DNA from: Bacteroidota bacterium
GTDB lineage: Bacteria; Bacteroidota; Ignavibacteria; UBA10030
NCBI GenBank assembly: GCA_025454835.1
Contig: JALONQ010000001.1
Location: 248,001-312,000 of the forward strand
DNA length: 64,000 nt
Direction of reading: 5' to 3'
A model generated the notes under the pieces. The model searched no databases, was not told the DNA's origin, and was given only the letters and a program-made list of their open reading frames with translations. The position numbers and the translations under genes were made by a program. Position 1 is the stretch's first letter. The number at the start of each line of letters is the position of its first letter. Shown one piece after another: positions 32,567 to 38,195 of the stretch.

Positions 32567-33216
32567 GTATCGTCACCGTCGAACGGACCGTGCTGGCGAA
32601 GAATGACGAGATCGCCCGTCAGAATCGCTCGCTCTTCGCATCACTCGGCACGTACGTCATCAACGTCGTCAGCTCCCCCGGCTCGGGCAAGACCACACTG
32701 CTCGAACGCACCCTCGAGCGGCTCACGGACCGTCTGTCGATCGCGGTCGTGGAAGGGGACGTGCAGACCGACATCGACGCACGCCGGCTGGAACGTTTTC
32801 GGATCCCGACCGCCCAGATCGTCACCAACGGCGGATGCCATCTGGAGGCCAATTTGGTCCGAGACGCCATCGCACGATTGCCGCTGAGCGGCGTGAAGCT
32901 GCTCGTCATCGAGAACGTCGGCAATCTCGTCTGCCCCTCGAACTATGACCTGGGCGAACACGACAAGGTGGTCGTCCTCAGCGTGACCGAAGGAGCTGAA
33001 AAGCCGCTGAAGTATCCGGCCATGTTCCAGCGCGCATCCGTTCTCGTGATCAACAAGATCGACCTCCTCCCCTACGTCGACTGCCGACTGGATGAACTGC
33101 GGGCCAACGCGCTCAGCATCAACCCGAGCCTGAAGGTCTTCGAGGTCTCCGCGACCAAAGGAAACGGCGTTGACAGCTGGTGCGACTGGCTTTCCACCAA
33201 AGCGCTCACCCCGTGA
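32563..33216 (+). CDS. hypB: HypB, GTPase for nickel incorporation
   Basis: The 217-residue GTPase has the P-loop SPGSGKTT, the G3/metal region ENVGNLVCPSNYDLGE and the G4 motif NKIDLLPY. It lacks the histidine-rich N-terminal nickel-storage stretch found in some HypB proteins. The start ATG overlaps the hypA stop (ATGA), and its own stop overlaps a GTG start of hypF (GTGA). Confidence 0.96.
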   Translation: MSIVTVERTVLAKNDEIARQNRSLFASLGTYVINVVSSPGSGKTTLLERTLERLTDRLSIAVVEGDVQTDIDARRLERFRIPTAQIVTNGGCHLEANLVRDAIARLPLSGVKLLVIENVGNLVCPSNYDLGEHDKVVVLSVTEGAEKPLKYPAMFQRASVLVINKIDLLPYVDCRLDELRANALSINPSLKVFEVSATKGNGVDSWCDWLSTKALTP

Positions 33217-35540
33217 CTGCCTCCCAGCCGACGGGCGGCCGCACCCGGTCGCGTGTGATGATCCACGGCGCCGTCCAGGGGGTCGGCTTCCGTCCGTTCG
33301 TCTATCGGTTGGCGGTCGAACGAGGACTCTTCGGCTGGGTCACGAACTCACCCCAGGGCGTCGTCATGGAGGTCGAAGGGGATCGCAGAGCGGTCATTGC
33401 CTTTCCAAGGCTCCTGCAGCAGCGAAAGCCCGCCATCGCGCAGATACACAGTTGTGAAGTGCTCGAGCTCGAACCGGTCGGCTACTCGGGGTTCGAGATC
33501 CGTCAAAGCGATCACGCCGGAGCGCGTACGGCGGTGGTCATGCCCGACCTGGCGACATGTCCCGATTGCCTGCGGGAGATCGGTGACCCGACCAATCGCC
33601 GCTATCGCTATCCTTTCACGAACTGCACGAACTGTGGCCCGCGGTTCACGATCATCTCGGCTCTGCCGTATGATCGCCCGTACACGACGATGCGGCGCTT
33701 CGACCAGTGTTCGGCCTGTCGACGCGAATACGATGACCCTTCCGACCGGCGCTTTCACGCCCAGCCGAACGCGTGTCCGGTCTGCGGGCCGCATGTCGAA
33801 CTGCGTAACCGTCAGCGCGAGACGCTGGCCTCACGCTGGGATGCGATCGGGCAGGCGGCGCAGATGGTCCGCGACGGTCTGATCGTTGCGGTGAAAGGGC
33901 TTGGCGGATTCCATCTGATGTGCGACGCGTCCAACGGCACGGCCGTCGCCGAGCTTCGACGACGCAAGCACCGCGAGGAGAAGCCGTTCGCTCTTCTGAT
34001 GCCGTCTCTCGACGCGACCCGACCGTATGTTCATCTTTCACCGGACGAGACCGACATCCTGAGATCAACGGCCTCTCCCATTGTGCTCGCAGAGCGCACC
34101 GCGGCGTCCTTGCTCTTCAGCGACGCCGTCCCGAACGCCAATCCCTACCTGGGAGTGATGCTTCCCTCGAATCCCCTCCATCATCTCTTCATGGGCCTGG
34201 TCGGCCGGCCGGTCGTGGCCACGAGCGGGAACCGCTCCGACGAGCCGATCTGCATCGACGAAGACGAAGCGGCGGTTCGGCTGGGAGACCTCGCCGACGC
34301 CTTCCTGGTCCACGATCGTCCGATCCTGCGGCACGCCGATGATTCGATCGTCCGCATCGTCCTTGGACGCGAACAGGTGCTCCGCCGGGCGCGCGGCTAC
34401 GCCCCCTTGCCCCTGATGGTCGGCCGGGAACTCCCCCCGACGCTGGCCCTTGGCGCCCACCTGAAAAGTACCGTGGCTGTCGCCTCGGGAACACGGATCA
34501 TCGTCGGCCAGCATCTCGGCGATCTGGAGACGGTCGAAGCGCGCAACGCCTTCGAGCGCTCGGCCCGTGACCTTCCGGGGTTGCACGGTGTGGAGCCCTC
34601 CATCGTGGCATGCGACCTTCACCCGGACTACGTCTCCTCCCAGTTCGCCAGGAAGCTGTCTCCGGCTCCCGTCACGGTTCAACATCATCTGGCCCACGTT
34701 CTGGCTTCCATGGCTGAGCACGATCTTGAGGGGCCGGTGTTGGGCGTCTCGTGGGACGGGACGGGCCTGGGTACGGACGGAACGATCTGGGGAGGAGAAT
34801 TCCTTGTCGTGGAACACGGTTCCTGGAGACGCGCGGCAACGCTGCGATCGTTCCGACTTCCCGGTGGCGATGCCGCGATCAAGGAGCCTCGTCGCAGCGC
34901 TCTTGCCGTCCTGACCGAGATCCTTGGACAGGACGTCTTGGATCGGACCGACATTGCAACGCTGACCGCATTCACCGAGGCCGAGAGACGCAGTCTGGTG
35001 CAGATGATCCGTCAAGGCGTGCGATCCCCGGTCACGACGAGCGCGGGACGTCTGTTCGACGCCGTCGCGTCGATCCTCGGGATCCGTCAGAAGGTTCGCC
35101 ACGAAGGACAGGCCGCCATGGAGTTGGAATGGGCTGCCCGAGGGAGCGACGACACAACTGCTTACGATATCCCGCTGAGAAATTCTGGCCAACACTATAT
35201 GCTCGACTGGGAGCCGGCCGTTCGATGCTTGTTGCGGGACCTTGCGGCCGGATGCAGCATCCCGTCGTTGGCCCGCCGGTTCCACTCGACCCTTGCGGAG
35301 GGCATCACCGCCGCGGCGTCAACTGTCGGGATCCCGCACGTGATCGTCACGGGTGGATGTTTCCAGAACGGCGTCCTGACGACGCTGACCGTCGAACGGC
35401 TCCGTCGGGCGGGGTTTCGACCCTTCTGGCATCAGCGGATACCGCCGAACGACGGAGGGATCTCAGCAGGCCAGGCCTATGCAGCGGCGCTCCGGCTCCA
35501 GCCGCTCGAGGCAACGCAGGCCTCGGAGGTATCCGCATGA
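33213..35540 (+). CDS. hypF: HypF, carbamoyltransferase for hydrogenase CN ligand synthesis
   Basis: The 775-residue enzyme makes the carbamoyl group that becomes the cyanide ligands of the hydrogenase iron. Domains in order: acylphosphatase (MIHGAVQGVGFRPFVYRLAV), zinc fingers with CPDC, CTNCGPR, CSAC and CPVC, the YrdC-like domain (VKGLGGFHLMCDA), and the Kae1-like carbamoyltransferase with VQHHLAHVLASMAEH. The GTG at 33213 overlaps the hypB stop as GTGA, which fits the tight packing of the operon; an ATG 33 bases upstream would overlap hypB further. Confidence 0.96.
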   Translation: MTASQPTGGRTRSRVMIHGAVQGVGFRPFVYRLAVERGLFGWVTNSPQGVVMEVEGDRRAVIAFPRLLQQRKPAIAQIHSCEVLELEPVGYSGFEIRQSDHAGARTAVVMPDLATCPDCLREIGDPTNRRYRYPFTNCTNCGPRFTIISALPYDRPYTTMRRFDQCSACRREYDDPSDRRFHAQPNACPVCGPHVELRNRQRETLASRWDAIGQAAQMVRDGLIVAVKGLGGFHLMCDASNGTAVAELRRRKHREEKPFALLMPSLDATRPYVHLSPDETDILRSTASPIVLAERTAASLLFSDAVPNANPYLGVMLPSNPLHHLFMGLVGRPVVATSGNRSDEPICIDEDEAAVRLGDLADAFLVHDRPILRHADDSIVRIVLGREQVLRRARGYAPLPLMVGRELPPTLALGAHLKSTVAVASGTRIIVGQHLGDLETVEARNAFERSARDLPGLHGVEPSIVACDLHPDYVSSQFARKLSPAPVTVQHHLAHVLASMAEHDLEGPVLGVSWDGTGLGTDGTIWGGEFLVVEHGSWRRAATLRSFRLPGGDAAIKEPRRSALAVLTEILGQDVLDRTDIATLTAFTEAERRSLVQMIRQGVRSPVTTSAGRLFDAVASILGIRQKVRHEGQAAMELEWAARGSDDTTAYDIPLRNSGQHYMLDWEPAVRCLLRDLAAGCSIPSLARRFHSTLAEGITAAASTVGIPHVIVTGGCFQNGVLTTLTVERLRRAGFRPFWHQRIPPNDGGISAGQAYAAALRLQPLEATQASEVSA

Positions 35541-35776
35541 ATCCGTACGAAGCCGTCCTTCGTTCGACCGACACGTCGGGACCTTCACGGACCGGATCGA
35601 CCACCGTACGTGGAGCCCTGATCTGCGCGCGGCTGGACCTGGTGCCTGATGCCAACATCGGAGACGTCCTCTTGATCGATTCCGGGGTCGCCGTCGCCGT
35701 TCTTTCGACCGAACCCAAGAAGCCATCCGAAGAGTCTCAAAGGACCATTCATCATGTGCCTGGCCATTCCCGGTAA
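35537..35776 (+). CDS. HypC-like small protein without the N-terminal cysteine
   Basis: A 79-residue reading frame starts at an ATG overlapping the hypF stop (ATGA) and runs 23 bases into hypC. The stretch ALICARLDLVPDANIGDVLL then IDSGVAVAVL lines up with the HypC core in the next gene ([20 protein letters not shown] then FALSRL): shared I-C, L-P/V-P, A, GD and G-x-A positions. It lacks the MCLAIPG start whose cysteine carries the Fe(CN)2CO unit. It therefore looks like a degenerate or specialised HypC paralogue, perhaps binding HypD. The ATGA coupling argues it is translated. Confidence 0.65.
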   Translation: MNPYEAVLRSTDTSGPSRTGSTTVRGALICARLDLVPDANIGDVLLIDSGVAVAVLSTEPKKPSEESQRTIHHVPGHSR

Positions 35777-36014
35777 GCTCATCTCGTTGAACAACGATTC
35801 CACGCCGAAGATGGGCATTGTGAGCTTCGGCGGCATCCAGAAGAACATTTGTATGGAGTGGCTGCCCGAAGCGGCCGTGGGCGACTACGTGATCGTCCAC
35901 GTCGGTTTTGCGTTGAGCCGTTTGGACGAAGCCGAGGCCCTGGAAACGATCCGGATGTTCGAGAAGATGGGCGAAGGCCTCGACGAGCTAGACACGCCCC
36001 CGGAGGGTCGGTAG
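35754..36014 (+). CDS. hypC: HypC, hydrogenase maturation chaperone
   Basis: The 86-residue protein begins [12 protein letters not shown]; the Cys2 that binds the iron centre is present. The C-terminal helix ([15 protein letters not shown]) is complete. It works with HypD to assemble the Fe(CN)2CO fragment and deliver it to the large subunit precursor. hypD starts 1 base after its stop. Confidence 0.96.
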
Positions 36015-36015
36015 G

Positions 36016-37127
<1,112 letters not shown>

Positions 37128-37131
<4 letters not shown>

Positions 37132-38195
37132 CCCTAGCCCGCGTTCAACCCGACTTCGACGGCGCTGCCTGCCCGATCCCGCTGACCGACTATCCGCACG
37201 TGCTTCTTGCCCATGGGGGCGGGGGCACATTGTCGCAGCATCTCATCGACAAGATCTTTCTCCCGGCCTTCGCCAATGAGGCGCTCGGATCGCTTCACGA
37301 CGGCGCGACCCTGCCGGTAGAACGCGGCGTCCTCGCCGTCTCGACCGATTCGTTCGTGATCGACCCGATCTTCTTCCCCGGAGGCGACATCGGATCGCTC
37401 GCGGTCCACGGGACGGTGAACGACGTGGCCATGTGCGGTGCGCGGCCGTTCGCCATCACGGCGGGGTTCATCCTGGAAGAAGGATTGCCGATGGACGATC
37501 TCTGGAAGATCGCGCAGTCGATGGGGGAAGCCGCCCGCGCCGCAGGCGTTCGGGTGGTCACCGGCGACACGAAGGTGGTGGACCGCGGCAAGGGGGACAA
37601 GATCTACATCAACACGACCGGCCTTGGCATCGTACCGCAAGGCGTGCGCATCGATCCGGCACGGGCGACACCTGGCGATGTCATCCTCTTGAGCGGTCCG
37701 ATCGCCTCACACGGCGTGGCGATCCTCTCCGTGCGGGAGGGGTTGGCCTTCGAAACCCAGGTGACGAGCGATTCAATAGCATTGCACGGCATGGTGGCCG
37801 GTATGCTGGACGCCTTTCCCGATATTCACGTCCTGCGCGACCCGACCCGCGGCGGCGTTGCCTCCGCTCTCAATGAGATCGCCCGGTCGTCCCGACGCGG
37901 AATGCGACTTGACCAATCGGCGCTGCCGATCGCCGAGGAAGTGCAGGGCGCGTGCGAGATCCTGGGGCTCGATCCCCTCTACGTCGCGAATGAGGGAGTT
38001 CTTATCGCGATCGTTCCCCCTGAAGCGGAAGGTCCCGTGTTGAGCGCCATGCAAGCGCATCCGGCCGGTCGCCACGCGCGCAGGATCGGCGCCGTCGTCG
38101 CCGACCATCCCGGCACCGTCGTCATGCGGACGACGATCGGCGGCACGCGGGTCGTCGACATGCTGTCGGGAGAGCAACTTCCCCGTATCTGCTAG
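37128..38195 (+). CDS. hypE: HypE, cyanide-forming dehydratase for hydrogenase maturation
   Basis: The 355-residue protein ends in LPRIC, the C-terminal PRIC whose cysteine accepts the carbamoyl group from HypF. It begins with [20 protein letters not shown] and has [14 protein letters not shown] and the [18 protein letters not shown]-binding stretch. It closes the operon hypA-B-F-(C-like)-C-D-E. No hydrogenase structural gene is in the window. Confidence 0.97.

Follow-up and report, generated by a model that had tools for sequence, protein, structure and literature searches.

A short HypC paralogue lacking the iron-handling cysteine and histidine lies between hypF and hypC in an Ignavibacteria-like bacterium

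The window, by which we mean the whole stretch of 64,000 nucleotides that was analysed, contains a hyp operon with the order hypA-hypB-hypF-paralogue-hypC-hypD-hypE (Table 1), whose hypA and hypB were identified by eye and served as references. The short frame behind hypF comprises 79 codons and a stop with no internal stop codon, and its start and the hypF stop have the four bases ATGA (35537-35540) in common. A preliminary description of the locus had reported this 79-residue frame and its overlap with hypF, both of which are borne out, and had placed the end of the feature at 36014, which is the end of hypC; the frame itself ends at 35776, with its final 23 bases overlapping hypC out of frame. 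The GC content by codon position (0.62, 0.51 and 0.65) is coding-like, with a third-position value below the 0.74-0.83 of the other hyp genes and thus a coding signal weaker than that of the neighbours. We infer that the frame is translated in the window. The genome also encodes two [NiFe] large subunits (L085 948-2495 and L086 3504-5111), both on contigs (C15 and C26) other than that of the hyp operon.

Table 1. Features of the hyp operon around the short paralogue, in window coordinates
Feature	Position	Strand	Remark
hypF	33180..35540	+	First possible start, true start possibly later; relatives' hypF about 50% identical
Ribosome-binding site GGAGG	35525..35529	+	7 bases 5' of paralogue ATG
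Short HypC paralogue, Cys2 and HypC histidine both absent	35537..35776	+	79 aa; ATGA overlap with hypF
Asn2 codon of paralogue	35540..35542	+	At the place of HypC Cys2
Asp48 codon of paralogue	35678..35680	+	At the place of the HypC histidine
Paralogue tail	35717..35776	+	About 20 codons, low model confidence
hypC	35754..36014	+	Ordinary, with Cys2 (35757-35759) and His49 (35898-35900)
hypD	36016..37131	+
hypE	37131..38195	+

The paralogue is a remote relative of HypC. A search with PF01455 returned it at E 1.2e-4, which is its only Pfam match, although the score of 22.6 bits lies under the gathering score of 28.5; the NCBIfam model TIGR00074 gave 17.5 bits against a cut-off of 48, and the adjoining ordinary HypC (35754-36014) scored 89.6 bits with PF01455. 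When the remaining 19 intact members of the family described below were made into a profile, the window protein scored 37.0 bits (E 2.1e-9), compared with 11.9 bits for the best of 20,000 shuffled versions of it; a profile of HypC proteins from the window's order gave it 14.3 bits. All 13 aligned members matched PF01455 at E up to 0.1, and some stronger relatives passed its cut-off, so that the expectation that such a small gene would often be missed does not hold for every member. AlphaFold2, run with the window protein and 12 relatives, predicted five strands with a mean pLDDT of 82.3 (roughly 90 or higher for residues 1-50), low confidence over residues 61-79 and no C-terminal helix. The six best Foldseek matches were all HypC (E 1.8e-3 to 1.3e-2), and VIA-align superposed the model on 3vys_A with Z 9.2 and 0.9 A over 53 residues, whereas unrelated barrels reached a Z of at most 7.6. 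The window paralogue is thus predicted to have the HypC beta-barrel; sharing this fold does not by itself show a function. Homology, family profile and best structural matches agree with the initial reading of a HypC-like paralogue that lacks Cys2 and is coupled between hypF and hypC.

This type of gene forms a conserved family that reaches further than the single copy in the window. The first relatives were found by a PF01455 search of family f1 for a short gene adjoining hypC, and a profile of 13 members was then used across the window's order of Ignavibacteria-like uncultured bacteria, where the type was present in 21 of 98 genomes (families f1, f2, f3 and f4), eight of which had not contributed to the profile (G602, G129, G615, G603, G090, G172, G249 and G029). 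Twenty copies are full length; the copy of G029, whose front half is broken, was excluded from the intact set, and the copy of G249, borderline at 52.9 bits where the best HypC row reached 49.4, was retained because of its start and its missing Cys2. In a phylum sample of 395 genomes the type occurred only in four members of the window's order (G000, G030, G090 and G129), which scored at least 83.1 bits compared with at most 52.5 for HypC rows. When 84,980 named genomes were scanned with a motif, 12 loci were returned, all from records labelled Ignavibacteria, Ignavibacteriales, Ignavibacteriae, Bacteroidetes or simply 'bacterium'. Most are metagenome-assembled genomes of Ignavibacteria type or of Bacteroidetes, on which the description of the order as Ignavibacteria-like is based. 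The motif requires ESGV, so members like that of the window escape it, and other phyla may also carry the type. Neither a scan with the window protein as lone query nor a search of plasmids returned a match. Many genomes of the 98 encode hypC and have no short paralogue, so the latter is dispensable. In G001, the sole genus-mate examined, the paralogue is absent and the hypF frame runs into hypC. Absence from close relatives or internal stop codons had been proposed as evidence against the gene: the frame is open and the type occurs in 20 further genomes of the order, but not in the genus-mate.

Comparison of the 20 intact paralogues with 37 HypC rows revealed a consistent set of losses. HypC shuttles Fe(CN)2CO using Cys2. 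Cys2 and the N-terminal Met-Cys are missing from all 20 paralogues, 17 of which have Asn at that place, and the window protein begins with MNPYEAV, as the initial observation of a lost MC had indicated. That observation was incomplete, because the conserved HypC histidine (His51 in E. coli) is lost as well, being replaced by Glu in 18 of the 20 and by Asp in the two others, which are the window protein and that of G615. The residue corresponding to Ala4 is missing and Pro6 is replaced in 20/20. The HypC rows were chosen by a pattern demanding MC and A4, which fixes their Cys2 and Ala4 counts by construction; the histidine, present in 37/37, is independent of that pattern. Paralogues are also shorter (61-79 residues, compared with 77-97), and conservation among them is highest in GD...ESGVA, a hairpin whose counterpart in HypC places the histidine at the contact with HypD; the window copy retains GD and SGVA. 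Hydrogenase activity in E. coli depends on C2 and H51 of HypC (PMC12134894). In T. kodakarensis HypC, His45 lines a cavity proposed to take up ATP, and a model has been put forward in which the C-terminal helical part of HypC closes over the Fe unit (PMC11565642). The window protein lacks Cys2, histidine and C-terminal helix alike. Given the known chemistry of the family, the loss of these residues makes HypC-style carriage of Fe(CN)2CO very unlikely, and the absence of two iron-handling residues suggests that the paralogue probably has a different job in hydrogenase building.

Evidence for selection comes from the relatives. In six close pairs, dN/dS of the paralogue was 0.14, 0.05, 0.10, 0.13, 0.24 and 0.21, and hypC gave 0.07-0.16 in five of the same pairs; two further pairs with higher dS gave 0.09 and 0.17, and one more was saturated. 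The low values in close pairs indicate that these lineages have retained the protein. A tree of 57 proteins, based on few columns and a rough bootstrap, places the 20 paralogues on one side of a branch with support 100/99. A poorly resolved HypD tree (28 rows) shows five label changes, which fit one gain followed by losses as well as several gains, and the broken copy of G029 indicates that loss does occur. Of all members, the copy in the window is the least typical and most diverged, with by far the longest branch among the 57 rows (9.42) and the lowest leave-one-out score (37.0 bits, compared with 60.7-116.1 for the other 19). These values, the lower third-position GC content, the absence from the genus-mate and the broken copy of G029 would all fit a copy that is decaying or under relaxed constraint while the family functions in other genomes. 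However, the window frame is open and retains ATGA, GGAGG, GD and SGVA, its fold is confidently predicted, and its dN/dS to G015 and G615 is below 1 (0.37 and 0.39, at dS 1.48 and 2.18), and we consider decay unlikely, if still worth keeping in mind.

The paralogue lies behind hypF in 17 of the 20 intact members; hypF ends within 20 bases of it, with a 4-base overlap in 13 members, a 1-base overlap in one and gaps of 15-20 bases in three, and GGAGG or AGGAG stands at a comparable place in 13/20 (counted by eye). Downstream, hypC follows in 16/20 at distances of -38 to +245. The window and several relatives have tight overlaps at both ends of the gene, which could reflect a mere spacer that couples translation of hypF and hypC through an irrelevant peptide, but purifying selection acts at the protein level and three members have gaps of 111-245 bases before hypC, which makes a spacer highly improbable. 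In G172, where hypC is found upstream of hypF, the paralogue remains between hypF and hypD and overlaps hypD by 4 bases. The constant position behind hypF wherever hypF was located (17/17), even where hypC has moved, would also fit a small subunit that is made with HypF and works with HypF or HypE instead of HypD. That reading draws on gene order, and the copy of G249 (L079 580-789) stands close behind a hypB-like frame instead; we regard it as quite improbable. HypC is not known to bind HypF. The copy of G011 (L042 499-702) lies between OsmC-like and alanine-dehydrogenase-like frames, named by eye. Neither HypD nor a [NiFe] large subunit was found in G011 (97% complete) or G249 (94%), and these two copies may be relics, may reflect assembly gaps or may signal work outside hydrogenase maturation.

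We also considered whether the paralogue serves the large subunits. It had been proposed as a large-subunit-specific chaperone, which would predict a link to a class of large subunit; this link was rejected, as carriers and non-carriers share the same PF00374 patterns. The rows were sorted by eye (1-79 with about 310-508, 1-87 with about 336-508, and a high-scoring class), a coarse typing distinct from hydrogenase classification. That presence of the paralogue follows no large-subunit class speaks against a dedicated chaperone. It also weakens the broader idea of a holder that binds immature large subunits and keeps them open while delivering no iron, and two carriers (G011 and G249) show no large subunit at all. 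C2, which is lost here, is essential for contact of HypC with apo-HycE (PMC12134894); in favour of a holder, HybG H52A gained binding to a foreign large-subunit precursor (PMC9002611), so that histidine loss can shift preference towards large subunits. On balance, such a holder appears unlikely.

Our preferred reading, which we hold tentatively and as less than an even prospect, is that the paralogue is an iron-free subunit of HypC fold which binds to the Hyp scaffold, probably where HypC sits on HypD or close by, and holds or regulates that site. An old HypC paralogue would have kept the beta-barrel and lost the iron-carrying features (Cys2, His51 and the C-terminal helix); translational coupling would produce it in step with HypF; and the docked protein would hold or regulate the site with no carriage of Fe(CN)2CO. 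Loyalty to hypF and to the gap between hypF and hypD, along with the kept HypD-facing hairpin, suggests a partner among HypD, HypE and HypF, of which the HypC seat on HypD is our first choice, with low confidence. The proposal that the paralogue is a decoy or a HypD-binding adaptor keeps its place here in a weakened form: H51A in HypC and H52A in HybG weaken HypD binding (PMC9002611), and Glu or Asp at that place may therefore mean no HypD binding. Against HypD docking, too, G011 and G249 carry the paralogue but show no HypD. A more specific version, in which the paralogue in the HypC seat gates reloading of the scaffold or ATP hydrolysis and so regulates assembly of the [NiFe] cofactor, seems doubtful at present; our literature searches turned up no description of such a subunit. 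Whatever its partner, this naturally occurring paralogue, kept by selection with the HypC fold but neither residue, is a ready means of telling docking and iron carrying apart, and HypC-family matches are not all to be annotated as iron chaperones.

The paralogue is a variant of the HypC kind that we have not seen described in the literature searched; a search on Cys-less or second HypC proteins, with subscription journals mostly outside its scope, found no description. It resembles HypC and HybG (PF01455, TIGR00074) in its predicted beta-barrel, its place in the hyp operon and a common core, and differs in the lost Cys2, His51 and C-terminal helix, the deleted Ala4 and the replaced Pro6. As with HupF and HoxL of O2-tolerant hydrogenase systems, a second HypC-family gene is present in one hydrogenase gene set, but HupF and HoxL retain Cys2. 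Furthermore, the C-terminus of HupF is longer than that of HypC, whereas the paralogue is shorter, and HupF occurs together with HupK (PMC3534401).

Other HypC-like genes were observed. G104 has a lone one that lacks Cys2 and keeps the histidine (L078 2721-2978), and another lone HypC-like gene lies in G620 (G620:C91:39703-39837); no HypD was found in either genome, nor was a [NiFe] large subunit found in G104. G269 (L080 1903-3240) encodes an unfused HypC-like protein without Cys2, again with the histidine, and a HypD-like protein in which AGEGLA replaces CGGQTH. In family f9, a HypC-like part without Cys2, in this respect like the paralogue, is joined to a HypD-like part, which marks a different gene; the four loci are L081 2841-4109 (G082), L082 1249-2565 (G074), L083 1002-2267 (G034) and L084 727-1995 (G064). 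Each is one frame of 421-438 aa whose HypD-like part lacks Cys41 (CGGQTH) and GFETT and retains GPGCP.C and the C-terminal cysteines, which suggests a HypC-HypD fusion without iron ligands.
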